64,000 bases of DNA from Pannonibacter phragmitetus DSM 14782. Lineage in GTDB: Bacteria; Pseudomonadota; Alphaproteobacteria; Rhizobiales; Stappiaceae. Each line of letters begins with the position of its first letter. The first letter of the stretch is position 1. The stretch spans positions 1 through 64,000 of the forward strand of contig NZ_KB908228.1 in the NCBI RefSeq assembly GCF_000382365.1, in the 5' to 3' direction. The notes under the pieces are model-generated. The model was not told where the DNA came from, ran no database searches, and saw nothing but the letters and a program-made list of their open reading frames with translations. The translations under genes were made by a program, and so were the position numbers. Below are positions 5,021 through 55,497 of the stretch, one piece after another.

Positions 5021-5037
5021 GTCGTTGGCTCCCTGTA

Positions 5038-5787: not shown

Positions 5788-6006
5788 GGCGTTTCCCTTC
5801 TGTCGGCCACCCAAAGGAATGGCATGTCCGGTTGCGGCAGCTGCCGCCACTCTTCCGGCCCGCCTGTGACGGGGCCTGAGATGACAACAGACGCTTCTGC
5901 TTGTGCCTGACTTTGCCGGATGGACGCGCTGTGCAACAGGACGTTTGCGTCATCAAGGGATTAGAGCTACGACATGACAGCGACACTTTGAACCACGGGC
6001 CCCGTC

Positions 6007-7041
6007 ATGAGCCTTGCCCCCGCCGTACCTCGCGCCGTGCCGCCACAACCGGCCTCCCACCCGCTGCGCCGCCCGCAGGGCAACGCGCGCCTCTCCGTCG
6101 GTTTCATTCTGGCCCGGCGTTTCACGCTCTGTGCCTTTGCCAACTTCGTCGACGTTCTGCGCCTTGCCGCCGACGAGGGCGACCGCAGCCGGCCGATCCT
6201 GTGCAACTGGACGGTGCTGTCGGACACGATGGAGCCGGTCACCTCGAGCTGCGGAATCAGTGTCCAGCCCAAGGAGCGCCTGGGCGATCCCACCCGCTTC
6301 GATTACATCGTCGTCATTGGCGGCCTGATGGAAGATGAAGCGGTACTGCCGCCGGGCTATCACCGCTTCCTGCACGAGGCCGCGGCAGCGGGCGTGCCGC
6401 TGGCCGGCGTCTGCACCGGGGCCTTCCTTCTGCACCAGGCGGGACTTCTGAATGGCTACCGCTGCTGCGTCAGCTGGTTTCACCATGCCGACTTTCTCGA
6501 GCAGTTCGAAGGGCTTAATCCCGTCACGGACCAGATCTTCGTGGTCGACCGCGACCGGCTGACCTGCTCCGGCGGGGTCAGCTCCGCGCATCTGGCGGCC
6601 TATCTGGTCGACAAGCATGTCGGCAAGGCACAGGCCAGCAAGAGCCTGCACATCATGATCATAGACGAGGCGCTTCAGGCCGACAAGCCGCAGCCCGGGA
6701 TCACGATGGACTTCAAGACCCGCGATCCGATGGTGCTGCGCGCCCTTCTGATGATGCAGCAGAACATAGAGCAGCCCTTCACGGTGGCAGAGATCGCCAG
6801 CCGGATCGGGCACAGCAAGCGGCAGCTTGAACGGCACTTTCAGGCAGCGCTCGGCACGTCGCCCCAGTCAGCCTTTCTGGACATGCGCCTGTCTCTCGCC
6901 CATCACCTGATCGTCACCGGCGACCGGCCCATCTCCCAGGTCGCGCTGGAATGCGGCTTCTGCGACAGTTCGCACCTGAGCCGCATGTTCCGCCGCCGCT
7001 ATGGGCAGACGCCGCAAGGGCTGCGTCAGGCCCGCAGCTGA
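6007..7041 (+). CDS. GlxA-family transcriptional regulator (AraC type with DJ-1/PfpI-like domain)
   Basis: A 344-residue protein with an N-terminal class I glutamine-amidotransferase-like domain (residues about 28-200, GVCTGAFLLHQAGLL) and a C-terminal AraC double helix-turn-helix (QPFTVAEIASRIGHSKRQLERHF and CGFCDSSHLSRMFRRRYG). This is the domain plan of GbdR/CdhR-type activators of betaine and carnitine catabolism. Divergent placement from etfB and close to a BCCT transporter and purU makes it the probable activator of the locus. No strong Shine-Dalgarno sequence is visible before the ATG. The inducer is unknown. Confidence 0.87.
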   Translation: MSLAPAVPRAVPPQPASHPLRRPQGNARLSVGFILARRFTLCAFANFVDVLRLAADEGDRSRPILCNWTVLSDTMEPVTSSCGISVQPKERLGDPTRFDYIVVIGGLMEDEAVLPPGYHRFLHEAAAAGVPLAGVCTGAFLLHQAGLLNGYRCCVSWFHHADFLEQFEGLNPVTDQIFVVDRDRLTCSGGVSSAHLAAYLVDKHVGKAQASKSLHIMIIDEALQADKPQPGITMDFKTRDPMVLRALLMMQQNIEQPFTVAEIASRIGHSKRQLERHFQAALGTSPQSAFLDMRLSLAHHLIVTGDRPISQVALECGFCDSSHLSRMFRRRYGQTPQGLRQARS

Positions 7042-7048
7042 CAAAAAA

Positions 7049-7074
7049 GCGCCCGCAGCATGATGTGCGGGCGC
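7049..7074. terminator. Bidirectional terminator between regulator and BCCT gene
   Basis: A perfect nine-base stem GCGCCCGCA / TGCGGGCGC with an eight-base loop sits between the two converging genes. The minus-strand side is followed by a six-T run, so it most clearly ends the BCCT transcript; on the plus strand the tail is only weakly T-rich. Confidence 0.8.
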
Positions 7075-7095
7075 CTTCTCTTCCAGTTTCAAGGA

Positions 7096-8745
7096 TCAGC
7101 GCGGCTCGCTGGCCAGGCCCTTCCAGATCGCGACACACATCAGCAACAGCAGCACCGTGAAGGGCAAGCCGGTCGAGATGACCATCGACTGCAGAGCTGA
7201 CAGTCCTCCTGCAGACATCAGGAGCACAATCGCGATGATTGCTTCAAACACGCACCAGAACACCCGCTGCGGAACCGGCGCATCCACCTTGCCGCCCGAG
7301 GTGATCGTGTCGATCACCAGAGAACCGGAGTCCGATGACGTCACGAAGAAGACAATCACCAGCATGATGCCGACGAAGGAGGTGATCTGAGCCAGCGGCA
7401 GTCCGTCCAGCATCGCGAACAGCTGCAGCGGCAGATCGGCGTCACGGGCGGCACTATAACCGTCCCGGACCAGCTGGCTGATTGCTGTTCCGCCAAAGAT
7501 CGACATCCAGATCACGCAGACAAGCGACGGGATCAAAAGGACGCTGATGATGAACTCGCGCACCGTGCGTCCACTCGAAACGCGGGCGATGAACATGCCG
7601 ACAAAAGGCGACCAGCTGACCCACCAGGCCCAGTAGAACGAAGTCCAGCCCTGCATGAAGTTGACATCCTCGCGCCCAACCGGGTTCGACAAGGCGGGAA
7701 GATACTGGAGATAGGCCAGAAGAAAATCGCCCATGTCCGTCATCAGCAGCAGCGTCGGTCCGGCGAACAGAACGAACATCAGCAGCGCGAAGGCCAGAAC
7801 CATGTTCAGCTCGGACAGGCGCTTCACCCCGGCTTCGAGCCCCCGGATCACCGAGTAGAGCGCGATTGCCGTGATCCCGATGATCAGAATGATCTGCGAC
7901 GTCTCGTTGACCGGCATGCCGAACAGCTTGTTGAAGCCGGCATTGGCCTGAACGGCGCCCAGGCCAAGCGAAGTCGCCAGCCCGAACAGAGTCGCAAAAA
8001 CAGCCAGGATGTCGATAATGTGCCCGGGCCAGCCCCAGACACGCTCGCCGAAGATCGGATAGAAGGCGGAGCGGATCGTCAGCGGCAGACCCTTGTTGTA
8101 GCTGAACAGCGCCAGGCTGAGCCCCACCACGGCATAGATCGCCCACGGGTGCAGCGCCCAGTGGAAGATTGTGGCAGCCATGCCCAGCCGGACTGCCTCC
8201 TGCTCGGTCGCAGCAGCGCCCAGGGGGGACCAGTCCGTACGGACCCCGTCGGCGCCTGCCTGTATGCCGCCTGCCGACGAACCGAAATGGCTCAGCGGCT
8301 CGCTGACGCCATAGAACATCAGACCGATGCCCATGCCGGCAGCAAAGAGCATCGAAAACCAGCTCAGATAGCCGAAGTCGGGCACAGCGGACGCCCCGCC
8401 AAGCCGGACCTTCCCGTAAGGGCTGACGACAAGAACAAGGCAAAGGATGACAAACACATCGGCAGCGCCGATGAAGAACCAGTCGAAGCCCTTCGTCGCA
8501 CCGGAAAACACGGCGGAGAAAAGCTGTCCTGCCAGCGTAGGCAGCGCGAGGGTGAAAATGACAAAGGCGATGACGCACAGGGCGGAAATGAGAAAGACGG
8601 GGTTGTGAACACTATAGCCCAGCGGCCCCAAGCGCCCGTTTATGTTGTCCTGCCCCGCCTCATAGCCGGTCCTGATTCCGTTTGTGGGCGGATTCAACCC
8701 GCGCCGTTCCCCGGCGTTACCGCCATTTTTTGTCACATTGGTCAA
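7096..8745 (-). CDS. BCCT-family betaine/carnitine/choline-type transporter
   Basis: A 549-residue, about 12-segment membrane protein of the betaine-choline-carnitine transporter family, which import trimethylammonium compounds driven by sodium or protons or by exchange. It shows the GMGIG motif in the third segment region and the family signature WTSFYWAWWVSWSPFVG. The start is taken as a TTG at 8745 because AGGAGG lies eight bases before it; the frame stays open for 96 further codons without a better site. Context suggests uptake of glycine betaine or dimethylglycine for the catabolic genes on either side. Confidence 0.9.
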   Translation of the reverse strand: MTNVTKNGGNAGERRGLNPPTNGIRTGYEAGQDNINGRLGPLGYSVHNPVFLISALCVIAFVIFTLALPTLAGQLFSAVFSGATKGFDWFFIGAADVFVILCLVLVVSPYGKVRLGGASAVPDFGYLSWFSMLFAAGMGIGLMFYGVSEPLSHFGSSAGGIQAGADGVRTDWSPLGAAATEQEAVRLGMAATIFHWALHPWAIYAVVGLSLALFSYNKGLPLTIRSAFYPIFGERVWGWPGHIIDILAVFATLFGLATSLGLGAVQANAGFNKLFGMPVNETSQIILIIGITAIALYSVIRGLEAGVKRLSELNMVLAFALLMFVLFAGPTLLLMTDMGDFLLAYLQYLPALSNPVGREDVNFMQGWTSFYWAWWVSWSPFVGMFIARVSSGRTVREFIISVLLIPSLVCVIWMSIFGGTAISQLVRDGYSAARDADLPLQLFAMLDGLPLAQITSFVGIMLVIVFFVTSSDSGSLVIDTITSGGKVDAPVPQRVFWCVFEAIIAIVLLMSAGGLSALQSMVISTGLPFTVLLLLMCVAIWKGLASEPR

Positions 8746-9232
8746 GCTTTCGTCCTCCTGAAGTGGGCACAGAGCCTGCCTGAAGGGGAACCTCGCCGGC
8801 GAACGCCGTCTTGTTTTCGAGCATGAAGTAAAGCGTACCCATCGGCCGGGGCGCAAAGCACCGCCCGTGCAGGAAGGAGGGGATCCTCCGGCTTTCATTT
8901 CCATGCAATTTGCGGCTGGCCCGAACGAGGCACGAGACAAGCAACTGGTACCGCCATCGTTATGTGTCGAAGTGCCGCGGCGCCGCAGAATGGGAACGAC
9001 ATTCCACCAGTAGTATTGCGTCCGCCCGGACAAGCACCGGAACGCGTCCTGCCCTGCCTGCCGTCAAAGGAGCGCAGGCCGCTGCGGGCTGGCGCAAAGC
9101 TGCTGGTCCCCCGTCGCAAATCTTCACGCCCGGGACCACTGCAGCAGCTACGGCTAACAAATAGGCCGGCGCCCGCTTTGTGACTTCCCCGGCCACTGCC
9201 CCTCTTCAGCGGCCGCGAAAAGGAAACTGCCG
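8746..9232. other. Gene-free divergent control region between BCCT gene and purU
   Basis: No convincing coding frame is seen in these 487 bases. The region must hold the promoters of the BCCT gene (minus) and purU (plus). A small GGAGG-ggat-CCTCC dyad occurs at 8876-8889. I could not identify an activator site with confidence. Confidence 0.5.
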
Positions 9233-10117
9233 ATGTCCCAGCTTATCCTGACATTATCCTGCCCCGTACGGATCGGGGTTGTCGCGACGATCTCGTCTTT
9301 CCTGGCGAACGCGGGTTGCAACATCTATGACAGTTCGCAGTTCACCGACGTGCAGAACAACCGCTTCTTCATGCGGCTCAGCTTCGTCTCCGAGCAGGGC
9401 CGCACGCGCGAAGATCTGGACGAGGCGTTCCGCGCAGAGATAGCGGGCTCGGACATTGTCCATTCCTTCCACGATCTCAGTGAAAAGATGAAAGTCGTCA
9501 TCATGGTCAGCCGTTTCGGGCACTGCCTGAACGACCTGCTCTACCGCTGGCGGATCGGGGCCCTGCCCATCGACATCGCGGCAGTCATCTCGAACCATAT
9601 GGATTATCAGAAGGTGGTGGTGAACCACGATATTCCGTTCCACTGCATCAAGGTGACCAAGGAGAACAAGGCACAGGCAGAAGCCGAGCAGATGAAGATC
9701 GTCCGCGATACGGGCGCCGAGCTGGTGGTTCTCGCCCGTTACATGCAGGTTCTGTCGGACGAGATGTGCACCAGGATGTCCGGCCGGATCATCAACATCC
9801 ATCACAGCTTCCTGCCCAGCTTCAAAGGTGCCAACCCCTACAAGCAGGCCTTTGACCGCGGCGTGAAACTGATCGGCGCGACCAGCCACTATGTGACGGC
9901 CGATCTGGACGAAGGCCCGATCATCGAGCAGGACACGGTGCGCGTGACACATGCCCAGAGCGCCAATGACTATGTGAGCCTCGGACGTGACGTCGAAAGC
10001 CAGGTTCTCGCCCGGGCAATCCACGCGCATATTCACCGCCGGGTCTTCATCAGCGGCGACAAGACCGTGGTGTTCCCGGCAAGCCCGAACGAATATGTAT
10101 CCGAGCGCATGGGCTGA
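9233..10117 (+). CDS. purU: Formyltetrahydrofolate deformylase
   Basis: PurU hydrolyses 10-formyl-THF to THF and formate. The 294-residue protein has an N-terminal ACT domain (residues about 3-85) and a C-terminal formyltransferase-like domain with IINIHHSFLPSFKGANPYKQA and VTADLDEGPIIEQ, which carry the Asn/His/Asp catalytic set. AAGGA precedes the ATG. In a methylated-amine catabolic locus it recycles THF when one-carbon units exceed biosynthetic need, a role also known for purU genes beside sarcosine or dimethylglycine oxidation genes. Confidence 0.94.
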   Translation: MSQLILTLSCPVRIGVVATISSFLANAGCNIYDSSQFTDVQNNRFFMRLSFVSEQGRTREDLDEAFRAEIAGSDIVHSFHDLSEKMKVVIMVSRFGHCLNDLLYRWRIGALPIDIAAVISNHMDYQKVVVNHDIPFHCIKVTKENKAQAEAEQMKIVRDTGAELVVLARYMQVLSDEMCTRMSGRIINIHHSFLPSFKGANPYKQAFDRGVKLIGATSHYVTADLDEGPIIEQDTVRVTHAQSANDYVSLGRDVESQVLARAIHAHIHRRVFISGDKTVVFPASPNEYVSERMG

Positions 10118-10156
10118 TCATCCAGCCATACATCTTGCCACTGCCAAAATGAAAAA

Positions 10157-10191
10157 CGCCCTGCAGCTCCTTGTCCGGGAACTGCAGGGCG
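10157..10191. terminator. Bidirectional terminator between purU and clpA
   Basis: A ten-base stem CGCCCTGCAG / CTGCAGGGCG flanked by a run of A on the left and T on the right lies between two converging genes, 40 bases past the purU stop and 20 bases past the clpA stop. Confidence 0.85.
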
Positions 10192-10210
10192 CATTGTTTT
10201 ACAGGGCCGG

Positions 10211-12643
<2,433 letters not shown>

Positions 12644-44096: not shown

Positions 44097-44507
44097 ATGG
44101 CCAGTTCCGTGACCCAATTTCCCGCCGCCCCTTCCGCCGAGGCTCTGGCCCATTTCGAGGCGCGGCTTGGCTTTGAGACCGACTGCTGGGACGTGCATCA
44201 CGCCCTTTCCACCGGGCAGCAGGACTTCGTGCTTCTGGATGTGCGCAGCCCAGCGCTTTACGCAAGCGGCCATCTGCCGGGCGCGCTCAACCTGCCCCAT
44301 GGCAAGATGACGGAGCGGCGGATGGCGGAGTTTCCGGAAGGCTCGCTCTTCGTCGTCTATTGCGCCGGACCGCATTGCAACGGCGCCAACAAGGCCGCCA
44401 TCCGCCTCGCCCGGCTCGGCCTGCCGGTGAAGGAACTCATCGGCGGCGTCACCGGCTGGCTGGACGAGGGCTTCACTCTTGCCACGCTCACCCAGCCGGC
44501 AGATTGA
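44097..44507 (+). CDS. Rhodanese-like sulfurtransferase
   Basis: A 136-residue single-domain rhodanese with DVRSPALYASGHLPGALNLPHG and the active-site loop YCAGPHCNGANKAA, where the first Cys (position of CAGPHC) is the persulfide carrier. Such proteins move sulfane sulfur to an acceptor, often in thiosulfate, cyanide or persulfide handling. AAGGA precedes the ATG. The 3' end overlaps the convergent histidine-kinase gene by 20 bases. A link to the nearby thiol-redox and TsdA-like genes is possible but unproven. Confidence 0.86.
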   Translation: MASSVTQFPAAPSAEALAHFEARLGFETDCWDVHHALSTGQQDFVLLDVRSPALYASGHLPGALNLPHGKMTERRMAEFPEGSLFVVYCAGPHCNGANKAAIRLARLGLPVKELIGGVTGWLDEGFTLATLTQPAD

Positions 44508-45849
44508 GTTCGGCACAGAACCCCTCTTCCGTCCGGTGAAAGCGAAGCTCCCCGCCCAGCTTGCTGACAGCCATGCCGACGATGGCAAGACCCAGACCGC
44601 TCCCCTCGCCCGCTGGCGAGGGACCCCGCTGGAAGCGCTCGCGGACCAGTTGATGGTCCTCTTCACGGATACCGGGCCCCTGATCAACCACGGTAAGCCT
44701 GAGGCGGCCCAGTTCCGTCTGTGCCGCAATGGCGATCCGGGAGCCTTCGGGGGCGTATTGCATGGCGTTTTCGATGATGTTGCGCAGGGCAAGACGCAAC
44801 AGGTTTTCGCTGCGCACGCCCGCCAATAGCGTCTCATCCGCATCCGTGACGACCTGCAGCGAGCGGCGGTTCTGCAATCCTTCGAGATCCCCCAGCACGC
44901 CCTGGACAAGGGCCGCGATGGCCAATGTCTGCGGGCGTGGCTCACCCTCGGCGGAATCCACCGCCGCCATGTCGATCAGTTGCCGCACCAGACGGCCGGT
45001 GCGGTCCACGCTTGTCGAAATCTGTGCGAGTGCCCGGGAGCGGACCTGCTCGTCCGTGCTCATCAAGGCCACCTGCGCCTGCGTCTTCAGGCCGGCCAGC
45101 GGCGTCTTCAGCTCATGCGCCGCATAGGCGGTGAAAGTCTTCTCCCGCTCGCGCGCTTCACTGACCCGCTGGAACAGCGAGTTGAGCGAGCGCAGCAGCG
45201 GCCGCACCTCGCCCGGTGCACCAGTTTCGTCCAGAGGATGAAGCTCATCTGCCGAGCGTCCCGCCAGATGCGCCGCGATGCGGTTCAGCGGCGCCAGCCC
45301 CTGCGCCACGCTCAGCCAGATCAGCAGCGCCAGCAGCGGCAGAATGGCAAAGGCCGGCACGAGTTGCCCCTTCACCACATCCGCCACCAGCCTGTCGCGG
45401 ATTTCGAGGCTGTCGCCCACCAGCACCCGCACATTCAGGACCGGATTGACCACGGCATAGACCCGCCATCTGGCGCCATCGACCGTGGTTTCACTGAAGC
45501 CATCGCGATGCTCTGCGAGCGACGCACGCGGCGCACTCTCCGAGCGGCTGACCAGTTGCCCCTCCAGAGACCATATCTGGCAGGAAAGCTGCCGCCGGTA
45601 ATCGCCCTGATCCGCTGAAAACTCTGGCGGAACGCCGCTCGCCGTCTGGCTGTTCACCACGGCAGCCACATCGACGTGGTGATTGTTGATCAGTGAACTG
45701 ACCATGCGGGCCGCTTCCATCAGACGCGCATCCAGTGCCTTTTCGACACGATGCTGAACGCTGACATAGGTCCAGGCGACGCCAAGCAGCCAGACTGCGC
45801 CCGTTGTCGCCAGCAGGATGAAGAAGAGCCGCAGGCGGATGGAGCGCAT
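44488..45849 (-). CDS. Sensor histidine kinase (QseC/TctE-like)
   Basis: A 453-residue kinase with a first membrane segment at about 10-30, a periplasmic sensor region, a second segment at about 163-183, HAMP, the H-box with His245 in AAHELKTPLAGL, and the ATPase domain with NIIENAMQYAPEG, DQGPGI and GSGLGLAIV. Its start overlaps the regulator stop by one base. It should phosphorylate the adjacent OmpR-type regulator in response to an envelope signal, which fits the Dsb/L,D-transpeptidase genes beside it. Confidence 0.91.
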   Translation of the reverse strand: MRSIRLRLFFILLATTGAVWLLGVAWTYVSVQHRVEKALDARLMEAARMVSSLINNHHVDVAAVVNSQTASGVPPEFSADQGDYRRQLSCQIWSLEGQLVSRSESAPRASLAEHRDGFSETTVDGARWRVYAVVNPVLNVRVLVGDSLEIRDRLVADVVKGQLVPAFAILPLLALLIWLSVAQGLAPLNRIAAHLAGRSADELHPLDETGAPGEVRPLLRSLNSLFQRVSEAREREKTFTAYAAHELKTPLAGLKTQAQVALMSTDEQVRSRALAQISTSVDRTGRLVRQLIDMAAVDSAEGEPRPQTLAIAALVQGVLGDLEGLQNRRSLQVVTDADETLLAGVRSENLLRLALRNIIENAMQYAPEGSRIAIAAQTELGRLRLTVVDQGPGIREEDHQLVRERFQRGPSPAGEGSGLGLAIVGMAVSKLGGELRFHRTEEGFCAELNLPAG

Positions 45850-46508
45850 CAGCCAGCCCCCAGCCGGTAGCCGACACCGCGCACCGTCTCGATGGCGCTG
45901 GCGCCGAGCTTTGCCCGCAGCTTGTGAATATGCACTTCGATCGTGTTGCTTTCGACATCCTCCTGCCAGCCGTAAAGCCGCTCTTCGAGGGCGGTTTTCG
46001 AGTGGATGGCATTCGGATTTTCCATCAAGGCATGCAGGATCGAAAACTCCCGCCGGGACAGCGGGATGACCTCGCCCTTGCGCTCCAGAACCATGGAGGC
46101 GGGATCAAGGCTCAGGCCCCGGAGGCTCAGCTTGCCGCTTGCCCGACCTTCGGCACGGCGGGTAATGGCCCGCAGCCGCGCGGCCACCTCGTCCAGATCA
46201 AAAGGCTTGCCGAGATAATCGTCAGCGCCCGCATCCAGCCCGTTGACCCGCTCGCCCACCCCGTCCTTGGCCGTCAGCAGCAGAACCGGCAGACGGTTTC
46301 CGGCCTCACGGATGGACAGCAGGATATCCAGGCCCTGCCCATCCGGCAGCATCCGGTCGAGCACCATCGCATCAAAGCCGCCGGTTGCCAGCGCCTGCCG
46401 GGCATCGGAAACCGTAGAGACCCCGTCAACGGCAAAGCCATAAAGCTTCAGCCCCTCCCGCAGGCCGTCCAGCAGGACGAAATCATCTTCCACCACAAGT
46501 ATCCGCAA
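45849..46508 (-). CDS. OmpR-family response regulator
   Basis: A 219-residue regulator with receiver domain (acidic residues D8/D9 region, phosphoacceptor Asp51 in VLDRMLPDGQG, and Lys in the GKPFDLDE motif) and a winged-helix DNA-binding domain ending in VHIHKLRAKLG and VRGVGYRL. It belongs to the QseB/PmrA branch, whose sites are direct repeats like those found at 46555 and 49800. It is divergent from dsbD, with the first box between them. Confidence 0.92.
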   Translation of the reverse strand: MRILVVEDDFVLLDGLREGLKLYGFAVDGVSTVSDARQALATGGFDAMVLDRMLPDGQGLDILLSIREAGNRLPVLLLTAKDGVGERVNGLDAGADDYLGKPFDLDEVAARLRAITRRAEGRASGKLSLRGLSLDPASMVLERKGEVIPLSRREFSILHALMENPNAIHSKTALEERLYGWQEDVESNTIEVHIHKLRAKLGASAIETVRGVGYRLGAG

Positions 46509-46554
46509 TCAAGCCTCCGTGAGCACGACCGTTCCTGTCTGGTGCCGTGGCAAC

Positions 46555-46571
46555 CTTAAGCCTGCCTTAAG
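46555..46571. promoter_or_regulatory. PmrA/QseB-type direct-repeat box, dsbD side
   Basis: CTTAAG-CCTGC-CTTAAG is a perfect hexamer direct repeat with 11-base periodicity, about one helical turn, as in boxes bound by OmpR-family PmrA/QseB regulators. It lies between the divergent response-regulator and dsbD starts (50 bases from dsbD), so it can control both. Confidence 0.75.
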
Positions 46572-46620
46572 CTGGGAACGGGATCCCTCCCCAACCGGAC
46601 AGGAAGCAGAAGGATGGTTC

Positions 46621-48438
46621 ATGCGGTCAGGCACCCTTTTCATCGCTTTGGCGGCGATGCTGACGATACAGGCCCCGGCACAGCTGCAGGCGCAGGATGC
46701 CCCCCTGCCCATGGATCAGGCGTTCCGCCTGACGGTTGAACGCAGCGCCGGTGGCGATGCCGTCCTGCACTGGCAGATGGCAGAAGGTTACTATCTTTAC
46801 CGCGAATATCTGGAGGCGAAAAGCCAGGCTGGCGAGGCACTGGAGGTCCGGAGCGGGCCGGGCAAGATCAAGGATGATCCGGGCTTCGGCACCATGGAAG
46901 TCTATTACGGCACTGCCACCGCCTCCATTGCAAGCCCGCCGCAGAAGATCGAAGTGACCTATCAGGGCTGTCAGGATGGCGGGCTCTGCTATCCGCCCAC
47001 GGCCAAGCGCATTGATCTGGCAAGCCTTGCGGTCACGGATGCAGGCAGGCCTGCCTTGCCCGAAGCAGCCGCTTTTGAAGCGGAGGGGGAGCCGGGGTTC
47101 ACACTGTCCGGAGATCACGCGGAGACGGCTGTTGACCGGCTGATGCAGGATGGCGGGCTGGCGCTGCTGCTGGCCGGCTTCCTAGGCTTCGGCCTGCTGC
47201 TCGCCTTCACGCCCTGCGTTTTCCCGATGTACCCGATCGTTGCCGCCATGCTGGCACGGGAGGGCGGGCAACTGACGGCCCGGCGCGGCCTTGTCATGTC
47301 CACGTCCTACGTTTCCGGCCTCGCCTTTGCCTTCGCCCTGCTTGGCGGGCTGGCGGCATGGTTCGGCCAGAATCTCCAGATGGCGCTTCAGTCGGTCTAT
47401 GTCACGGCGGGCATTGCCGCGCTCTTCGTGCTGCTTGCCCTGCCGGGCTTCGGCCTGTTCAGCCTGCAGCTTCCCCAAGGCCTTGTCAGCCGCCTCACGC
47501 CCTCCGGCAAGGCCGGCGGAACAATTGCCGGGGCCGGAGCGCTCGGCTTTTCCTCGGCGCTGTTCATTGGCCCCTGTGTCACCGCGCCTCTGGCTGGCGC
47601 GCTGCTTTACATCGCCAGAACCGGCGATGCGCTGCTCGGCGCCATGGCGCTTTTTGCGCTGGGGCTCGGCAAGGGCATTCCCCTCATCATCATGTCGGCG
47701 GCGGGCGGCCGCATTCTTCCCAAGGCAGGTGCCTGGATGGAAAGCGTGCGGCAGATCTTCGGCTTCCTGTTTCTGGCAACCGCGCTGTGGCTCGTCATGC
47801 CGCTTCTGCCGGATTGGGGCAACCTGCTGGCCTCAGCCGCGCTCGCCCTCACCTTCGGCCTCTTCACGCTGCAGGCGGCAAACGGCTCCAGCCACAACGG
47901 CATGAAGCTGCTGGGCAGAAGCACCGGTCTGGCCTCGCTCTTCTGGGCCGCCCTTCTCTTCACCGGGCTCGGGCTGGGGGCAAGCGATCCGCTGGAACCG
48001 CTGGCGCCGCTCGCCACAAAGACGGCTTCCACCCAGGCTGCGCAGATCAGCAAGTCCAGCTTCACTGCGGTCACCTCGCGGGAAGACCTCACGGCCCGCA
48101 TCGCGGCAGCGGACGGCAGCAGCCCGGCTCTTGTCTATGTGACCGCTGACTGGTGCGTGACCTGCCGCACCATCGAACGCAGCATCCTCAAGGACCCGCA
48201 GGTTGCCAGCGCCTTGACCGGCATAACCCTGACCACGCTCGACGTGACGGCAGCCGATGCCGGCAAACAGGCGCTGATGCAGGAACTGAAGGTCATCGGC
48301 CCTCCCACCCTGATCTTTCTGGACAGAGCAAGGCGGGAGCCGGATGGAACCCGACTGATTGGCAACTTCCCGGCGCAAGATCTGGCCGATGCCGCGATCA
48401 AGGCCAAGCAAGCGTCTCTTTTCAATCTTGCCAAGTGA
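46621..48438 (+). CDS. dsbD: Thiol:disulfide interchange protein DsbD (ScsB/DsbD type)
   Basis: A 605-residue electron conduit that carries reducing power from cytosolic thioredoxin to periplasmic partners. A signal peptide leads to the N-terminal DsbD domain with the redox pair Cys117/Cys123 (GCQDGGLCYPP). About eight membrane segments with FTPCVFPMYP and FIGPCVTAPLAG carry the membrane cysteine pair. A C-terminal thioredoxin domain has DWCVTC. All six catalytic cysteines are present. AAGGA precedes the ATG. It starts an operon with an L,D-transpeptidase and a DsbA-like gene. Confidence 0.93.
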   Translation: MRSGTLFIALAAMLTIQAPAQLQAQDAPLPMDQAFRLTVERSAGGDAVLHWQMAEGYYLYREYLEAKSQAGEALEVRSGPGKIKDDPGFGTMEVYYGTATASIASPPQKIEVTYQGCQDGGLCYPPTAKRIDLASLAVTDAGRPALPEAAAFEAEGEPGFTLSGDHAETAVDRLMQDGGLALLLAGFLGFGLLLAFTPCVFPMYPIVAAMLAREGGQLTARRGLVMSTSYVSGLAFAFALLGGLAAWFGQNLQMALQSVYVTAGIAALFVLLALPGFGLFSLQLPQGLVSRLTPSGKAGGTIAGAGALGFSSALFIGPCVTAPLAGALLYIARTGDALLGAMALFALGLGKGIPLIIMSAAGGRILPKAGAWMESVRQIFGFLFLATALWLVMPLLPDWGNLLASAALALTFGLFTLQAANGSSHNGMKLLGRSTGLASLFWAALLFTGLGLGASDPLEPLAPLATKTASTQAAQISKSSFTAVTSREDLTARIAAADGSSPALVYVTADWCVTCRTIERSILKDPQVASALTGITLTTLDVTAADAGKQALMQELKVIGPPTLIFLDRARREPDGTRLIGNFPAQDLADAAIKAKQASLFNLAK

Positions 48439-48452
48439 TACAGGAATACCGC

Positions 48453-49154
48453 ATGCCCTCAAGCAAACTGCTGGCAACTGTCCTGTCTGCCCGCCAAACC
48501 CTGATCATCATGGCGCTGGCCCTGGGTCTGGGTGCCTGTGTGCAGACCTCACACACGGCGCCGCCGCATCCGGGCGCCGGACCTGCCGTGCAGGCCATGT
48601 ATGGCCCGGTTATGGACGCTGAGGAGATGATCCCGGCCGTGGACGTGTCGAAGATGGACCCGGAAAATATCCGGCAGATCGTCAACTACCGGACACCCTA
48701 TCCGCCGGGCACCATCGTTGTCGATCCGCATGCCCGGTTCCTCTATCTGGTGATGGAGAACAGCAAGGCGATGCGCTACGGCGTGGGCGTTGCCAAGGCA
48801 GGCCTGGAGTTTGAGGGTGAAGCCGATGTTGCCCGCAAGGCCCGCTGGCCGGGCTGGGTGCCGACGCCCGGCATGATCCAGCGGGAGCCGGAGCGCTATG
48901 GCCATCTGGCGCAGGGCATGCCCGGCGGCATCGAAAATCCCCTCGGCGCCCGCGCGCTCTATCTCTACAAGGACGGCAAGGACACGCTCTACCGGATCCA
49001 CGGCACGAACGAGACCTGGTCCATCGGCCAGTCTGTGTCCTCCGGCTGCATACGCCTGCTCAATCAGGACATCATCGATCTTCATTCGCGCGTCCCGAAG
49101 GGATCGCGGGTGGTGGTGCTTGGCCCCGAACACTCTGGAAAAGGAGAATTCTGA
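48453..49154 (+). CDS. L,D-transpeptidase lipoprotein (YkuD domain), first copy
   Basis: A 233-residue lipoprotein (lipobox LGLGAC, Cys29) with a YkuD domain (about 85-225) whose motif HGTN-x(11)-SSGCIRLLN has His183 and the nucleophile Cys199. L,D-transpeptidases make 3-3 peptidoglycan links or attach proteins to the wall. It begins 14 bases after dsbD, and the next gene overlaps its stop. A cysteine enzyme encoded beside DsbD suggests that DsbD keeps it reduced; this is inference. It is a close paralogue of the copy at 49946. Confidence 0.92.
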   Translation: MPSSKLLATVLSARQTLIIMALALGLGACVQTSHTAPPHPGAGPAVQAMYGPVMDAEEMIPAVDVSKMDPENIRQIVNYRTPYPPGTIVVDPHARFLYLVMENSKAMRYGVGVAKAGLEFEGEADVARKARWPGWVPTPGMIQREPERYGHLAQGMPGGIENPLGARALYLYKDGKDTLYRIHGTNETWSIGQSVSSGCIRLLNQDIIDLHSRVPKGSRVVVLGPEHSGKGEF

Positions 49155-49759
49155 TGCTGCAACGGCGCGAGTTTATCACCGCAGGCCTCACCATGATGGG
49201 TGCTGCCCTTCTCTTCCCCGCGCAAAGCCTTGCCCGGATAACACGGGAAGACGTGTTCTACGACAAGGACGCCCCGGTTCTCGGCAACCCGGACGGCAAG
49301 GTCACCGTGGTTGAGTACTTCGACTACCAGTGCCCCTATTGCAAATCCTCCCACCCGGTTCTGAAGAAGGTGGTGGAGGAAGACGGTGATGTGCGGCTGG
49401 TGCTGAAGGACTGGCCCGTCTTCGGCGGCGCGTCGGTCTTTGCCGCACAGGCCGTGCTGGGGGCAGCCCAGATCGGCAAATACGAGACGGCCATGGAAGC
49501 GCTGATGAAAACAAAGGGAAAGCTGACCGAAGACATGGTGGAAGCGGCCCTGACCGGTGCGGGCCTGACCATGGAAGAGCTTGCCGCCGCCGTGAACGGC
49601 AACACTGCCAGGATCTCCGGCCTGCTGGACCGGAACTACGATCAGGCCCTTGCCTTCAATTTTGCAGGCACACCGTCCTTTGTCATCGGCAGTTCGCTTT
49701 ACCCCGGCGTGCTGGACGAACGCGCGCTGAAGGCGGCCATCGCCAGGGCACGGAGTTAA
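49154..49759 (+). CDS. DsbA-family thioredoxin-like protein (ScsC/Com1 type)
   Basis: A 201-residue exported thiol oxidoreductase with the active site Cys60-Pro-Tyr-Cys63 in EYFDYQCPYC and the cis-Pro loop AGTPSFVIG. The N-terminus MLQRREFITAG with a following hydrophobic stretch may be a Tat or a Sec signal. CPYC proteins encoded next to DsbD-like proteins are usually isomerases/reductases kept reduced by them, as in ScsB-ScsC. Its start overlaps the transpeptidase stop by one base. Confidence 0.9.
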   Translation: MLQRREFITAGLTMMGAALLFPAQSLARITREDVFYDKDAPVLGNPDGKVTVVEYFDYQCPYCKSSHPVLKKVVEEDGDVRLVLKDWPVFGGASVFAAQAVLGAAQIGKYETAMEALMKTKGKLTEDMVEAALTGAGLTMEELAAAVNGNTARISGLLDRNYDQALAFNFAGTPSFVIGSSLYPGVLDERALKAAIARARS

Positions 49760-49799
49760 ATCCTGCGGCGACCGTCAGGGCTGCGGGCAGCTTTCGCGC

Positions 49800-49816
49800 C
49801 TTAAGGCTGCCTTAAG
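49800..49816. promoter_or_regulatory. PmrA/QseB-type direct-repeat box, second transpeptidase
   Basis: CTTAAG-GCTGC-CTTAAG repeats the exact hexamers and spacing of the box at 46555-46571. It lies 130 bases upstream of the second L,D-transpeptidase ATG and 41 bases after the DsbA-like stop, pointing to a separate promoter under the same regulator. Confidence 0.72.
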
Positions 49817-49945
49817 GCAGCCTTGCGATCCGCCTCTGCCGGTGGCCGGACAGCCGCAATGCCAGTTGTCCGGCCACCGCAAACGCAGACCGCAGGGCAG
49901 GTTCCGGGCGCAAGTCCGGCTGCCGCATATCAAGGCCCACCTTTG

Positions 49946-50656
49946 ATGACCTCCATGAATACCCCCGTTTCAACGCGCCTGCGCGCGCGGTATTTCGCGC
50001 AGACCGCCCTCATGGGCCTGCTCGGCCTTGCCCTCACAGCCTGCGTCTCCACCAAACAGCCGGGCGAGCCTTCGCAGGCGGAGCAGGCAGCTCTGGCAAC
50101 CGGTGTGGAGCGCTATCAGGCCCGCACCGATGAGCCCTTCCCGGTGGCAGCCGTCGACACGAAGAAGATCGGTGACAAGTACCTGAAGCAGATTGTTGAC
50201 TACAAGACGGACTATCCGGCCGGGACGATTGTCGTCGATCCGGCCAGCCGGTTCCTTTATCTGGTCAAGGATGGCGGCAAGGCCGTGCGTTATGGCGTTG
50301 GCGTGGGCAAGGCCGGGTTCGAGTTCTCAGGCACCGCCCATGTCGGCTTCAAGCGGCAATGGCCGCGCTGGACGCCGACGCCGGACATGCTGGCGCGCGA
50401 TCCCAGACGCTACGGCAAATGGGCAGACGGCATGGAGGGCGGCGACAAGAACCCGCTCGGCGCCCGCGCCATGTATCTGATGAAGGATGGCAAGGACACG
50501 CTCTACCGCATCCATGGCACCAACGAACCCTGGACAGTCGGCACCGCAGCGTCTTCAGGCTGCATCCGGATGCTCAATCAGGATGTGATCGACCTCTACA
50601 ATCAGGTGTCCCCCGGTGCGCAGGTCGTGGTGCTGGGCGCCGACGGAAGCATCTGA
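49946..50656 (+). CDS. L,D-transpeptidase lipoprotein (YkuD domain), second copy
   Basis: A 236-residue lipoprotein (lipobox LALTAC, Cys33) with a YkuD domain and the catalytic HGTN (His190) and SSGCIRMLN (Cys206). It is collinear with the first copy and shares long stretches, such as PAGTIVVDP, RFLYLV, RYGVGV-KAG and DGKDTLYRIHGTNE, so the two arose by duplication. It has its own CTTAAG box. ATG 49955 is an alternative start. Confidence 0.92.
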   Translation: MTSMNTPVSTRLRARYFAQTALMGLLGLALTACVSTKQPGEPSQAEQAALATGVERYQARTDEPFPVAAVDTKKIGDKYLKQIVDYKTDYPAGTIVVDPASRFLYLVKDGGKAVRYGVGVGKAGFEFSGTAHVGFKRQWPRWTPTPDMLARDPRRYGKWADGMEGGDKNPLGARAMYLMKDGKDTLYRIHGTNEPWTVGTAASSGCIRMLNQDVIDLYNQVSPGAQVVVLGADGSI

Positions 50657-50809: not shown

Positions 50810-50821
50810 AGGGAATACCCT
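50810..50821. promoter_or_regulatory. Dyad in the promoter of the pentahaem cytochrome gene
   Basis: AGGGAATACCCT is a short inverted repeat 86 bases upstream of the cytochrome ATG, followed by a second G/C dyad (TCCCGGGA). It could bind the LuxR-type regulator encoded downstream; the assignment is only positional. Confidence 0.3.
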
Positions 50822-50907: not shown

Positions 50908-52986
50908 ATGGAAGAAAGCAAAAACAGGAAACTGAAACGGCTGGGGGCAGCTGCGGCCGCAGCCGCCGTTCTGGCTTCCGGTGTAGCCATCTGGATGGCC
51001 ATTCCCCCGGCCATCACCGCAAGGGAGCCTGACTTCGGCGCCAGCGTTGATCCGGCCCTGATCGAACGGGGTAAGTATATCGCGTATCTTGGCGACTGCG
51101 TTGCCTGCCACACCGAAAAGGGCGGCGCACCCATGGCCGGCGGTCTGGCGCTAGAAACCCCGATGGGCACGATCTGGTCCACCAACATCACGCCCGACCC
51201 GAAAACCGGCATCGGCGGCTGGACCTTCGGCGAATTTGACCGCGCCATGCGCAAGGGCGTGGCGGCAAATGGCCATAACCTTTACCCGGCCATGCCCTAT
51301 CCCTCCTATGCCAAGATCACCGAAGAGGACATGACGGCGCTGTGGGCCTATCTCATCAAGGGGCTGGAGCCCGTGGAGAAGCCAAACCAGCCGGCGCAGA
51401 TGAACTTCCCCTTCAACCTGCGCTTCGGCCTTGCCTACTGGAACGCCGTCTTTGCCGATGACACACCCTTCGTGCCGGACCCGGCCCAGGATGAGGAGTG
51501 GAACCGCGGCGCCTATCTGGTGCAAGGTCTTGGCCATTGCGGAGCCTGCCATACCCCGCGCGGCATCGGCTTCAACGAACTCGCCATGACGGAAAAGGGC
51601 CGCAATGGCGATCAGTTCCTTGCCGGGGCACAGGTGGAAAACTGGCACGCCATCGAACTGCGCGACCTGTGGACCGTGGAAGACACCGTCGAGCTTCTGA
51701 AGACCGGCCAGAACCGCTTTGCAACCGTCTCCGGTTCGATGACCGATGTCATCCTGCATTCGACGCAACATTTCACCGATGAAGACCTGACCGCCATCGC
51801 GGTCTATCTGAAGTCGCTGCCCTCAAAGCACCCCCGGCCGCTGCCGCCGGAACCGGTCTACACGGGCGCACCGGACGCGGCCTTCAACACCGCTGGCGGT
51901 CTGGGCTACATGCAGTTCTGCAACGATTGCCACCGGCCGGACGGAACGGGCGTGAGGGGCATTTTCCCGGCGCTCGCCGGAAACCCCACGATTACAGCGA
52001 AAGACCCCTCAAGCCTCATCCACATTACCCTGACAGGCTGGGAAACGGCGGCGACCAACGCATATCCACGCACCTACACCATGCCTGCATTCGCCCGGCT
52101 GACGGACAAGGAAATTGCAGAGATCCTCAGCTATGTGCGTGAGAACTGGGGCGGCGGTGCCCCTGCTGTCACCGAAGCGCAGGTGGCGAAGGCCCGCAAG
52201 AATATCGATCCGAAGATCGATGCATCCACATTCGTGACGCCGCGCCTCGCCAGCCTGCTTGACGAGCCGGACAAGGACCAGCTGGTTCTGGGCATGCGGC
52301 TCAACTCGGAGACGAACAAGCTGCTGCCGGGCCATGTCGGCAATGATCTCAACTGCACCTCGTGCCACCTGAATGCCGGCACGGTTGCCGATGGTTCGCC
52401 CTATGTCGGCGTCTCGGCCTTCTTCCCCAGTTATGCACCCCGTTCCGGCAGGGAAATCACCATGGCCGACCGCATCAACGGCTGTTTCCGCCGCTCGATG
52501 AACGGCCAGCCGCTGAAGCCGGACTCGGAAGAAATGCTGGCCATGCTTGCCTATTTCGACTGGATGAAAGGCGAAACCCGGCCAGAGGACAAGGTTGAAG
52601 GCCGGGGCATCGGCAAGATTGATCCGTCGCTGACGCCTGATCCGGTGAATGGTGAAAAGATCTATGCCGCCCAGTGCGCCGTCTGCCATGGCGCCAATGG
52701 CGAAGGCCTGAAGGATGGCGCAGGGCGTGTGGTCTATCCCGCGCTCTGGGGTGAGCGCTCGTTCAACATCGGCGCAGGCATGGCCCGCACCTACACGGCC
52801 GCCGCCTTCGTCAAGCGCAACATGCCCATCGGCTTCCACGAGAAGTTCCCGCTCGGACAGGGCGGCCTGTCGGATCAGGAAGCGCTCGATGTCGCCGAAT
52901 TCTTCAGCCACAAGCCCCGGCCAGACTTTCCCGGCAAGGAAAAGGACTGGCCAAACGGAGGAAAACCGAAAGACGCCCGTTACTGA
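50908..52986 (+). CDS. Pentahaem c-type cytochrome: alcohol-dehydrogenase-type triheme module fused to TsdA-like module
   Basis: A 692-residue membrane-anchored periplasmic protein. After an N-terminal anchor (about 10-33), residues 50-410 match the cytochrome subunit of alcohol/gluconate dehydrogenases, with haem motifs CVACH (64), CGACH (211) and CNDCH (338). Residues 455-670 match diheme TsdA thiosulfate dehydrogenase/tetrathionate reductase, with CTSCH (483) and CAVCH (590). Cys526 in RINGCFRRSMNG lies exactly 39 residues after His487, the place of the unusual Cys haem ligand of TsdA; Met639 is a candidate distal ligand of the last haem. The fusion suggests TsdA chemistry wired to a quinol- or dehydrogenase-linked haem chain. 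Direction of reaction unknown. Confidence 0.85.
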   Translation: MEESKNRKLKRLGAAAAAAAVLASGVAIWMAIPPAITAREPDFGASVDPALIERGKYIAYLGDCVACHTEKGGAPMAGGLALETPMGTIWSTNITPDPKTGIGGWTFGEFDRAMRKGVAANGHNLYPAMPYPSYAKITEEDMTALWAYLIKGLEPVEKPNQPAQMNFPFNLRFGLAYWNAVFADDTPFVPDPAQDEEWNRGAYLVQGLGHCGACHTPRGIGFNELAMTEKGRNGDQFLAGAQVENWHAIELRDLWTVEDTVELLKTGQNRFATVSGSMTDVILHSTQHFTDEDLTAIAVYLKSLPSKHPRPLPPEPVYTGAPDAAFNTAGGLGYMQFCNDCHRPDGTGVRGIFPALAGNPTITAKDPSSLIHITLTGWETAATNAYPRTYTMPAFARLTDKEIAEILSYVRENWGGGAPAVTEAQVAKARKNIDPKIDASTFVTPRLASLLDEPDKDQLVLGMRLNSETNKLLPGHVGNDLNCTSCHLNAGTVADGSPYVGVSAFFPSYAPRSGREITMADRINGCFRRSMNGQPLKPDSEEMLAMLAYFDWMKGETRPEDKVEGRGIGKIDPSLTPDPVNGEKIYAAQCAVCHGANGEGLKDGAGRVVYPALWGERSFNIGAGMARTYTAAAFVKRNMPIGFHEKFPLGQGGLSDQEALDVAEFFSHKPRPDFPGKEKDWPNGGKPKDARY

Positions 52987-53012
52987 TGCCTTGCCCAGGC
53001 ATTATCAGGAGG

Positions 53013-53033
53013 ACCGGCCGCATCGCGGCCGGT
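53013..53033 (+). terminator. Terminator after the pentahaem cytochrome gene
   Basis: ACCGGCCGC-atc-GCGGCCGGT is a perfect nine-base stem followed by CTTTC, 26 bases after the stop. It separates the cytochrome gene from the sensor kinase gene, although read-through is possible. Confidence 0.8.
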
Positions 53034-53077
53034 CTTTCACATCGCCTTCTCCTGCTGCCTGTGCCAGTTTCACCGCC

Positions 53078-54844
53078 ATGATCCGCCTGCCGTTCCTGCT
53101 TGCCCTTGCCCTGACCGCCGCGCAGCTGCCCGCGCAGGCGGACAGCATCCGCATTGGCGTACTTGCCTTTCAGGGCTCGGAAAGGGCGGCAAAGGATTTC
53201 GAGCCGACGATTGCCCATCTCGCTCAGAGCCTGCCGGAACACAGCTTCACCCTTGTGCCGCTCGATCTTGCCGGCATGGAAAGGGCAGCAAGAGCCGGGG
53301 GCTTGGGCTTCCTCATCACCAACCCGGGAAACTATATCGAGCTTGAGTCGAGCTTCGGCATTACCCGTCTGGCAACCCTCGAAACCCGGAACCATGCCAT
53401 ACCGACCGATACGGTCGGCTCTACCATCATCGTTGCGAACCGGCCCCGGCACCCGGCACAGCTTTCCGGCCTTGCCGGCGCCCGGCTTGCAGTCGTGGAC
53501 AAGGATGCTTTCGGCGGCTGGCATGTCATCCAGCGGGAAATGGAGGCCCACGGCCTGCCAGCACGCCGCCTCACAACCATTCTGGAAACCGGCTTTCCTA
53601 TGAACAATGTCATCACCGCCCTGCGCAAGGGCCGGGCGGATGCGGGCATCATACGCGCCTGTCTTCTGGAAGAGGAAATTGCTGCCGGGCGGGTGGCGCC
53701 GGATGAATTCGCGGTGGTGGGTGAACGTCCGGAGCCCGGCTTTCCCTGCCGCCTGTCCTCGCGCCTCTATCCGGACTGGCCTTTTGCGCGGCTCGCCGGC
53801 ACGCCGCCGGATCTGGCAAAGGCCGTGACCGCAAGCCTGTTGTCCATGGCCCCGGCAGATGGCCGCGCCTGGACCGCGCCGCAGGATTACACCTCCGTGC
53901 ATGCCCTGTTCCGTCAGCTGAAAATCGGGCCTTACGCCAATCTGGAGCACTCCACCTTCCTCAATTTCCTGCGGGCGCACTGGCAGTGGTTTCTGACCGC
54001 CTGTCTCGGGGTGGTCTGGTGGATCATTCACGTGGCACGCGTGGAAACACTGGTGCGGCGGCGCACGGCAGAACTGACGCGGGAAATTCAGGAGCGCGAA
54101 AAGGCGGAACAGACGGCCCGCACCCACCGGGAAGAGCGTGACCAGTTCTCACGGCTTGGCATTCTGGGCGAGATGGCCTCCAACATCGCTCATGAGATCA
54201 ACCAGCCGCTGGCTGCCATCACCAACTATGCCGAAGGCATGACCCGGCTGATTGATGCCGGGCGCACCGACCCGGCGCTGCTGCGCGACGGGGTGCGCGG
54301 CATCGCCGGGCAGGCAGAACGGGCCGGGCTCATCATCCGCCGCATCCGCTCCTTCGTGCGCCGCCGTGAGTTCAGGCGCGAGAATCTCGATGTGAACGAG
54401 GTGCTGCGCGAGACACTGCCCCTTTTTGAGGGCACGGCGCTGCGTCTTGGGGTGCCGCTGCATGTCCATCCAGGCACGGATCTGCCGCAAGTCTATGCCG
54501 ACCGTATCCAGATCGAGCAGGTGCTGTTCAATCTCCTGCAGAATGCGCTGGATGCGATGACAGAAACCGGAGGCCGGGAGCGCGGCATCAAGGTGACGGC
54601 GCGCCATACCGGTGATGCCGTGGAAATCGCGGTGCGTGACCATGGCACCGGCCTGACGGCAGAGGTAGAGGCGCATCTGTTCGATGCGTTCTTCACCACC
54701 AAGGCGAAGGGGCTGGGGCTTGGACTGTCGATCTGCCGCACCATCGTTGAAAATCACAGCGGGCGGCTCTGGGCCGCGAACGAAGCAGGCGGCGGGCTGA
54801 GCATGCACTTTACCCTGCCCGTTTCCCGGGAGACTGACGAATGA
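53078..54844 (+). CDS. ttrS: TtrS-type sensor histidine kinase with PhnD-like periplasmic domain
   Basis: A 588-residue kinase with the TtrS domain order: signal peptide (1-21), PhnD/TtrS-like binding-protein domain (about 23-290), one membrane segment (about 302-322), a coiled linker, H-box with His372 (NIAHEINQPLAAI), N-box Asn489 (LFNLLQNALDAM), then DHGTG and KGLGLGLSICRTI. In Salmonella, TtrS senses tetrathionate through this domain. The sensor domain has two cysteines (Cys195, Cys224) that could react with a sulfur compound, which is inference. The gene overlaps the regulator gene by four bases. Confidence 0.82.
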   Translation: MIRLPFLLALALTAAQLPAQADSIRIGVLAFQGSERAAKDFEPTIAHLAQSLPEHSFTLVPLDLAGMERAARAGGLGFLITNPGNYIELESSFGITRLATLETRNHAIPTDTVGSTIIVANRPRHPAQLSGLAGARLAVVDKDAFGGWHVIQREMEAHGLPARRLTTILETGFPMNNVITALRKGRADAGIIRACLLEEEIAAGRVAPDEFAVVGERPEPGFPCRLSSRLYPDWPFARLAGTPPDLAKAVTASLLSMAPADGRAWTAPQDYTSVHALFRQLKIGPYANLEHSTFLNFLRAHWQWFLTACLGVVWWIIHVARVETLVRRRTAELTREIQEREKAEQTARTHREERDQFSRLGILGEMASNIAHEINQPLAAITNYAEGMTRLIDAGRTDPALLRDGVRGIAGQAERAGLIIRRIRSFVRRREFRRENLDVNEVLRETLPLFEGTALRLGVPLHVHPGTDLPQVYADRIQIEQVLFNLLQNALDAMTETGGRERGIKVTARHTGDAVEIAVRDHGTGLTAEVEAHLFDAFFTTKAKGLGLGLSICRTIVENHSGRLWAANEAGGGLSMHFTLPVSRETDE

Positions 54845-55497
54845 GCGAAACTGGCCTGCCCCTCGTGCTGATCGTCGATGATGACGAAGCCATGCGCCGG
54901 TCCATGGCGTTCCTGTTCGCCTCCGTCGGGCTTGAAACGCAAAGCTTTGCGTCAGCGGACGAACTTCTCCCGGCCCTCGCCCCGGAGAGCTGCATGCGGC
55001 CCGGAGCTCTGGTGCTTGACGTCAGGATGCCCGGCATGAGCGGACTGGAGCTGCAGCGCCGGCTTGCCAGCCAGAGTTTTCCCCTGCCCATCCTGATCGT
55101 GACGGGCCACGGCGATGTGGCCATGGCAGTCGAGGCGCTGAAGGCCGGGGCTTTCGACTTCATCGAAAAGCCCTTCAAGGAACAGAACCTGCTCGATGTG
55201 GTCACGGCAGCCATCCGCCAGTCGCAGGACAACCTCGCCCGCAACGCCCGCCGCCGCACCATTCAGGAGCGGCTGGCAAGGCTCGGGCGGCGGGAGCGCG
55301 AAGTGCTGGACGGTATTCTCGCCGGCAAGTCGAACAAGATCATCGCCTATGAACTCGACCTGTCGATCAAGACCATCGAGGCCTACCGCGCCTCCGTCAT
55401 GACCAAGATGGAAGCCGCCTCCCTGCCTGAACTCGCCTTGATGGTCGGCTCCGTTGATGGGGGCGGCACAGGCCCCCATCTGGGGCAGACCCAGTAG
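54841..55497 (+). CDS. ttrR: TtrR/FixJ-type response regulator
   Basis: A 218-residue regulator with an N-terminal receiver (Asp60 in LVLDVRMPGMSG, Thr/Lys at IVTGHG and EKPF) and a C-terminal LuxR-type helix-turn-helix (RREREVLDGILAGKSNKIIAYELDLSIKTIEAYRASV region split by the recognition turn). The DVRMPGMSG-EKPF pattern is typical of FixJ/TtrR. Coupled by a four-base overlap to ttrS. The adjacent cytochrome gene is its likely target, since no ttrABC genes are present. Confidence 0.85.
   Translation: MSETGLPLVLIVDDDEAMRRSMAFLFASVGLETQSFASADELLPALAPESCMRPGALVLDVRMPGMSGLELQRRLASQSFPLPILIVTGHGDVAMAVEALKAGAFDFIEKPFKEQNLLDVVTAAIRQSQDNLARNARRRTIQERLARLGRREREVLDGILAGKSNKIIAYELDLSIKTIEAYRASVMTKMEAASLPELALMVGSVDGGGTGPHLGQTQ

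Follow-up and report, generated by a model that had tools for sequence, protein, structure and literature searches.

The reading frame at 50908..52986 (+ strand) of the window, that is, of the whole stretch of 64,000 nucleotides that was analysed, encodes a pentahaem fusion protein of 692 amino acids. A probable N-terminal membrane anchor is followed in this protein by a trihaem cytochrome module of the AdhB type and by a TsdA module. The product is probably a TsdA-type thiosulfate dehydrogenase/tetrathionate reductase that carries a covalent AdhB-type trihaem relay and is regulated by an adjacent TtrSR-like pair. The first-pass annotation had described one intact frame with five CxxCH motifs and a cysteine haem ligand of the TsdA type, and this observation was correct. 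The frame is uninterrupted, the motifs lie at residues 64, 211, 338, 483 and 590, and Cys526 is located exactly 39 residues past His487. This cysteine is the only one in the protein beyond the five haem motifs. The pentahaem architecture is real and conserved, as it is kept in 47 aligned orthologues.

The separate domain searches proposed in the first-pass annotation gave homology far above chance for both halves, and the measured limits (residues 45–432 and 443–676) are near those expected there (40–410 and 450–675). The trihaem module (51040..52203, + strand), with its CxxCH motifs at 64, 211 and 338, was matched by phmmer in the PDB to the cytochrome subunit of membrane alcohol dehydrogenase (8gy2_B, E 6.5e-99), to FAD-glucose dehydrogenase (8hdd_B, E 4e-93) and to fructose dehydrogenase (7w2j_C, E 9e-75). 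Its three haem ligands, Met129, Met278 and Met392, are invariant in the 47 orthologues. The alignment to 8gy2_B ends at residue 436 of the 478 residues of that subunit, and TsdA stands in the place of the C-terminal part of the alcohol dehydrogenase cytochrome subunits past this approximate point. The hydrophobic segment at residues 14–32 (50947..51003, + strand) is a probable membrane anchor, in which the top Kyte-Doolittle window of the protein is found (residue 14, score 2.05) and which overlaps the helix placed by AlphaFold2 at residues 2–31. The AlphaFold2 model, built without haems, has a pLDDT of 78.2 and a pTM of 0.79; its low-confidence stretches include the C-terminal tail and several loops by the haem sites, which would not be surprising in a haem-less model. 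Foldseek with this model returned the same structures as the sequence search (8gy2, 5lo9 and 4wq7), with E 3e-19 for 5lo9 and E 1e-15 and TMt 0.79 for the structures of Allochromatium vinosum TsdA (AvTsdA).

The TsdA module (52234..52935, + strand) includes the CxxCH motifs at 483 and 590 and Cys526, and was matched by phmmer in the PDB to AvTsdA (4wqc, E 4.4e-53) and to the TsdA part of Marichromatium purpuratum TsdBA (5lo9, E 4e-43). The Pfam domain SoxA-TsdA_cyt-c is recognised at residues 482–549 with 43.4 bits against a cut-off of 27. The assignment to TsdA also held when a better-scoring dihaem family outside TsdA was sought, with the model of SoxA, the closest rival by function, reaching 32.6 of the 110 bits of its cut-off. 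The active-site residues of AvTsdA are Arg109, Arg119, Cys123, Ser127, Gly221 and Arg224 (PMC4423706). By pairwise alignment to AvTsdA, these residues correspond to Arg512, Arg522, Cys526, Ser530, Gly624 and Arg627 of the fusion, all of which are invariant in 47/47 orthologues. The same holds for the CxxCH motifs at C483 and C590 and for Met639, the equivalent of the distal ligand of haem 2. By homology, Cys526 is predicted to ligate haem 1. The residue preceding Met639 is Asn638; this position is occupied by Asn in Campylobacter jejuni TsdA and by Lys208 in wild-type AvTsdA (PMC5146829). Classic TsdA rows of the tree alignment commonly have Asn here as well, and therefore Asn638 says nothing on the direction of catalysis. 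The haem-2 loop K-x-N-M was considered as a marker of tetrathionate-reducing bias and was dropped, being common in classic TsdA too.

The nearest relatives of the fusion are a split pair, in which a trihaem gene is followed by tsdA. In five genomes (G055, G360, G378, G562 and G650) the trihaem gene lies directly 5′ of a separate tsdA, which gives Rosetta-stone support to the idea that the two halves work together. In the tree of the TsdA half, the fused and split forms branch together (100/99) and separately from the classic TsdA rows, with the fused rows as one group within the tree (87/70). In the tree of the trihaem half, the fused rows form one clade (94/98) apart from the subunits of alcohol, glucose and fructose dehydrogenases. 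The simplest history, we infer, is that a trihaem-tsdA gene pair was fused once and that the fusion then spread across lineages. A natural three-haem variant is encoded by a betaproteobacterial metagenome-assembled genome (MAG) (L081:7500-8774) and consists of a signal peptide, the haem III domain and TsdA; the sequence upstream of it shows no remnant of haems I and II.

In the proposed mechanism, thiosulfate or tetrathionate would react at TsdA haem 1 (His487/Cys526), where a Cys-S-thiosulfonate would form as in A. vinosum TsdA. Electrons would be passed from TsdA haem 2 (His594/Met639) to haem III (Met392), then to haem II (Met278) and haem I (Met129). The exchange partner of haem I would be either the quinone pool or a cytochrome c/oxidase of the periplasm, and the exchange is placed at this haem because it adjoins the N-terminal membrane helix in sequence. 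The path would thus be linear, in the order TsdA haem 1, haem 2, III, II, I and membrane. The haem III domain directly precedes TsdA and is the only trihaem domain retained in the L081 variant. The beta subunit of FAD-glucose dehydrogenase is a close match to the N-terminal half of the fusion, and mutagenesis of its haem ligands supports a flow from the catalytic subunit to haem 3, haem 2, haem 1 and the acceptor (PMC5979317). The earlier suggestion that the enzyme possesses its own electron wire gains support from this mutagenesis and from the split-operon relatives.

A survey of genomes for the same fusion, proposed in the first-pass annotation, showed that it recurs in Alpha-, Beta- and Gammaproteobacteria. 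Single frames with five haem motifs were found in 77 of the 80 best loci of a species-wide scan, a share that is not a population frequency because these are the best 80 of 314 relatives and the query was drawn mostly from fusions. Of the other three loci, L106 lies at a contig edge, L085 has a shortened frame and L081 is the three-haem variant. An assembly or frame artefact is ruled out by the identical single-ORF form in these 77 loci. The 80 loci come from Rhizobium, Xanthobacter, Rhodopseudomonas, Roseovarius, Ideonella, Zoogloea, Azospira, Herbaspirillum, Comamonas, Pseudomonas, Janthinobacterium and others. The occurrence is sporadic: of the five genomes in the genus of the window, one has the fusion. 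Within the order, 297 genomes were searched, in which the fusion occurs three more times and the split form once (G055). TsdA was detected at E<1e-30 in 36 of 398 genomes of the phylum, the own genome counted; the fusion is carried by four of the 398 in addition to the own genome, and the split form by a further four (G360, G378, G562 and G650). Plasmid-borne copies are known from Cupriavidus metallidurans pMOL30, three Thioclava plasmids, Rhizobium sp. ACO-34A and Ideonella dechloratans. On pMOL30 (L147), the gene is flanked by an integrase and a merT-like gene, with the czc metal-efflux cluster close by. Public annotation gives the protein no more specific name than 'c-type cytochrome' or 'cytochrome C', and every NCBIfam model listed for it stays below its cut-off. 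No description of the fusion was found in the titles, abstracts and passages returned by a full-text literature search, and an earlier mention elsewhere in the TsdA literature is possible.

Directly downstream of the fusion gene lie a TtrS-like histidine kinase (53078..54844, + strand) with a PhnD-type periplasmic sensor domain (Pfam Phosphonate-bd, 4e-26) and a TtrR/FixJ-like response regulator (54841..55497, + strand) with a receiver and a LuxR-type helix-turn-helix domain. The pair fits the layout of a PhnD-type periplasmic sensor on a HisKA kinase together with a LuxR-type regulator (Pfam). The kinase is matched by the NCBIfam TtrS model (E 1.5e-94) with 317.5 bits, under the cut-off of 750, and the regulator by the TtrR model with 146.9 bits, under the cut-off of 290, nearly the full model being covered in both cases; for FixJ, the regulator scores 240.1 bits with a cut-off of 255. 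Of the 80 loci, 20 have a TtrS-like sensor domain close to the fusion, either downstream (Allorhizobium, Ideonella), upstream (Zoogloea, Gallionella) or in convergent orientation (Acidovorax), and a recognised TtrSR pair adjoining the fusion is absent in most of the 80. The gap of 91 nucleotides between the fusion and the TtrS-like gene holds a 10-bp GC hairpin (53012..53034, + strand; fold z -4.9), a possible partial terminator or mRNA stabiliser. A promoter and terminator scan by the fusion gene gave no signal above chance.

A candidate TtrR-type operator, AGGGAATACCCT, is located at 50810..50821 (+ strand), 98 bp upstream of the start codon, and consists of a dyad with an N4 spacer. A dyad of the form NGGG-N4-CCCN lies 95–109 bp 5′ of the start in 12/12 loci that have TtrSR directly downstream, several of which are close relatives and therefore not independent events, and shuffled sequences gave a mean of 2.3/12 and a maximum of 7. 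The positions 50810-50821 are the only match of the AGGGWAWACCCT pattern in the genome. The ttrR box of Vibrio parahaemolyticus is GTGG-N4-CCAC, and TtrRS of Vibrio directly activates tsdBA, whose product oxidises thiosulfate in vivo (PMC11293645). The geometry and spacing of the fusion dyad are those of the Vibrio box, and the adjacent TtrSR-like pair would be the likely controller of the fusion gene.

To our knowledge, all characterised TsdA enzymes are reversible, and the fusion enzyme should be reversible as well. Its direction in vivo appears to lean somewhat to thiosulfate oxidation because of the Vibrio TtrRS-TsdBA precedent. Some carriers are known as sulfur oxidisers or aerobes, which counts for the same direction. 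So does the M. purpuratum fusion, which is biased to thiosulfate oxidation (PMC5146829).

The closest competitor, to which a smaller yet considerable probability is assigned, is a physiological tetrathionate reductase. Electrons would then run from quinol or a cytochrome through haems I, II and III to TsdA, and tetrathionate would be respired or detoxified by an enzyme that its substrate induces through TtrSR. The membrane anchor beside haem I agrees with this direction. No NrfD-family protein was found in the genome and hence no TtrC of known type, which leaves no TtrABC of known type for TtrSR to control. The thiosulfate/tetrathionate couple lies at +198 mV (PMC5146829). The potential of ubiquinone is lower, which makes ubiquinone a poor acceptor and quinol a good donor; with ubiquinone as the partner, tetrathionate reduction is thus favoured and thiosulfate oxidation disfavoured. 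Sensors of the TtrS type respond to tetrathionate (PMC11293645), and C. jejuni TsdA is a tetrathionate reductase (PMC5146829). However, the signal of many beta- and gammaproteobacterial members, as read by eye, looks cleavable and not like an anchor, and so anchoring is not universal in the family. Many carriers, Pseudomonas fragi and Janthinobacterium among them, are moreover generally regarded as aerobes. The bias of the M. purpuratum fusion (PMC5146829) also stands against reduction, as does the finding that the one TtrRS-controlled TsdBA for which a study was found oxidises thiosulfate in vivo (PMC11293645).

A bolder and rather doubtful proposal is that the protein is a pentahaem oxidoreductase, anchored in the membrane, which couples quinol to tetrathionate (or thiosulfate to quinone), needs neither molybdenum nor a quinone-binding subunit of its own, and is switched on by tetrathionate via its dedicated TtrSR. 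If true, a single gene would encode a self-contained respiratory module, carried by plasmids from one proteobacterium to another.

It is very improbable that the trihaem half still serves an alcohol or sugar dehydrogenase, with the TsdA half as a passenger or an extra electron outlet. The trihaem half does resemble the alcohol, glucose and fructose dehydrogenase subunits closely (E 1e-99 to 1e-75), but a search of the near flanks of the fusion in the window (ORF list, Pfam) revealed no adjoining PQQ, GMC or molybdenum dehydrogenase gene. The C-terminal segment of the alcohol dehydrogenase subunit is swapped for TsdA, in which every active-site residue is retained, and in the split form the trihaem gene directly precedes tsdA. 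A passenger TsdA on a dehydrogenase subunit was rejected because of the missing dehydrogenase neighbour together with the split pair. Even less credible is a role like that of SoxA, in which the cytochrome would attach thiosulfate to a carrier protein and make no tetrathionate: SoxA and TsdA share one Pfam domain and a Cys-ligated haem, but SoxA identity is opposed by the low score of its model (32.6 against 110 bits) and by the absence of SoxB from the genome (best match 123.7 bits, cut-off 550), and Ser530, the equivalent of the TsdA-specific Ser127 (PMC4423706), is invariant.

Several features of the neighbourhood were observed as well. Before the fusion, the window holds an OmpR-type two-component pair and genes for DsbD, YkuD, DsbA and YkuD (44491-50656). 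In Xanthobacter (L052, L061, L064, L072 and L078), a YkuD-DsbA-DsbD set and the same two-component family flank the fusion in another orientation, and a tie between this set and periplasmic thiol damage by tetrathionate is possible. In six loci (L067, L070, L071, L075, L076 and L083, about positions 4000–10500), TtrS-TtrR, the pentahaem fusion, a dihaem TsdB and a classic TsdA stand in a row; two adjacent TsdA systems of this kind perhaps serve one direction or one partner each. A Rhodobacterales MAG (L058:8841-10607) encodes a second, four-haem TsdA-type ORF directly 3′ of the pentahaem fusion. Another AdhB-like trihaem stretch (G000:C11:141282-142496, L002) with 40% identity lies in an open frame of 1166 residues and is possibly a different fusion.

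The electron partners of TsdA enzymes in each organism, and the direction in which they work, are an open question in sulfur bioenergetics, and a TsdA-type enzyme with a trihaem relay would have its partner encoded in its own gene. Mutagenesis has already addressed the haem order III, II, I of the trihaem family, so that every step of the path can be predicted and then targeted by mutation. The linked sensor genes and the conserved dyad offer a direct genetic handle on the purpose of the fusion. Members of the family are found in numerous environmental Proteobacteria, with common inhabitants of soil, sludge and food among them, and giving the family a name would assign a role in sulfur cycling to many genomes.

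Among the known systems, M. purpuratum TsdBA (5lo9) likewise has a TsdA module covalently joined to an N-terminal c-type acceptor module. Its acceptor is a dihaem TsdB, giving four haems in total, whereas the fusion described here contains an AdhB-type trihaem module, five haems and an N-terminal hydrophobic helix. The N-terminal half is trihaem and of the AdhB type, not a dihaem TsdB, and the best stretch in common with 5lo9 starts at residue 439. The TsdA enzymes of A. vinosum and C. jejuni have the same two CxxCH motifs, Cys ligand of haem 1, Arg and Ser substrate residues and Met ligand of haem 2, but are separate dihaem proteins; at the switch position of haem 2, Lys is found in AvTsdA and Asn in the fusion family and CjTsdA. 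The trihaem subunits of alcohol dehydrogenase (8gy2), FAD-glucose dehydrogenase (8hdd) and fructose dehydrogenase (7w2j) share the three CxxCH motifs and three Met ligands, while the fusion differs in its TsdA C-terminal region, in having no dehydrogenase partner gene and in forming its own clade. The ttrRS-ttrBCA-tsdBA locus of V. parahaemolyticus resembles the present one in the TtrRS-type pair by a TsdA system and in the promoter dyad with a 4-bp spacer (PMC11293645); there, however, a separate dihaem TsdB and TtrBCA are encoded and the box reads GTGG-N4-CCAC, whereas the present locus has an NGGG-N4-CCCN dyad and its genome lacks NrfD/TtrC. The fusion is, in the favoured reading, an enzyme of the TsdBA kind with a different built-in wire, and not a new chemistry.
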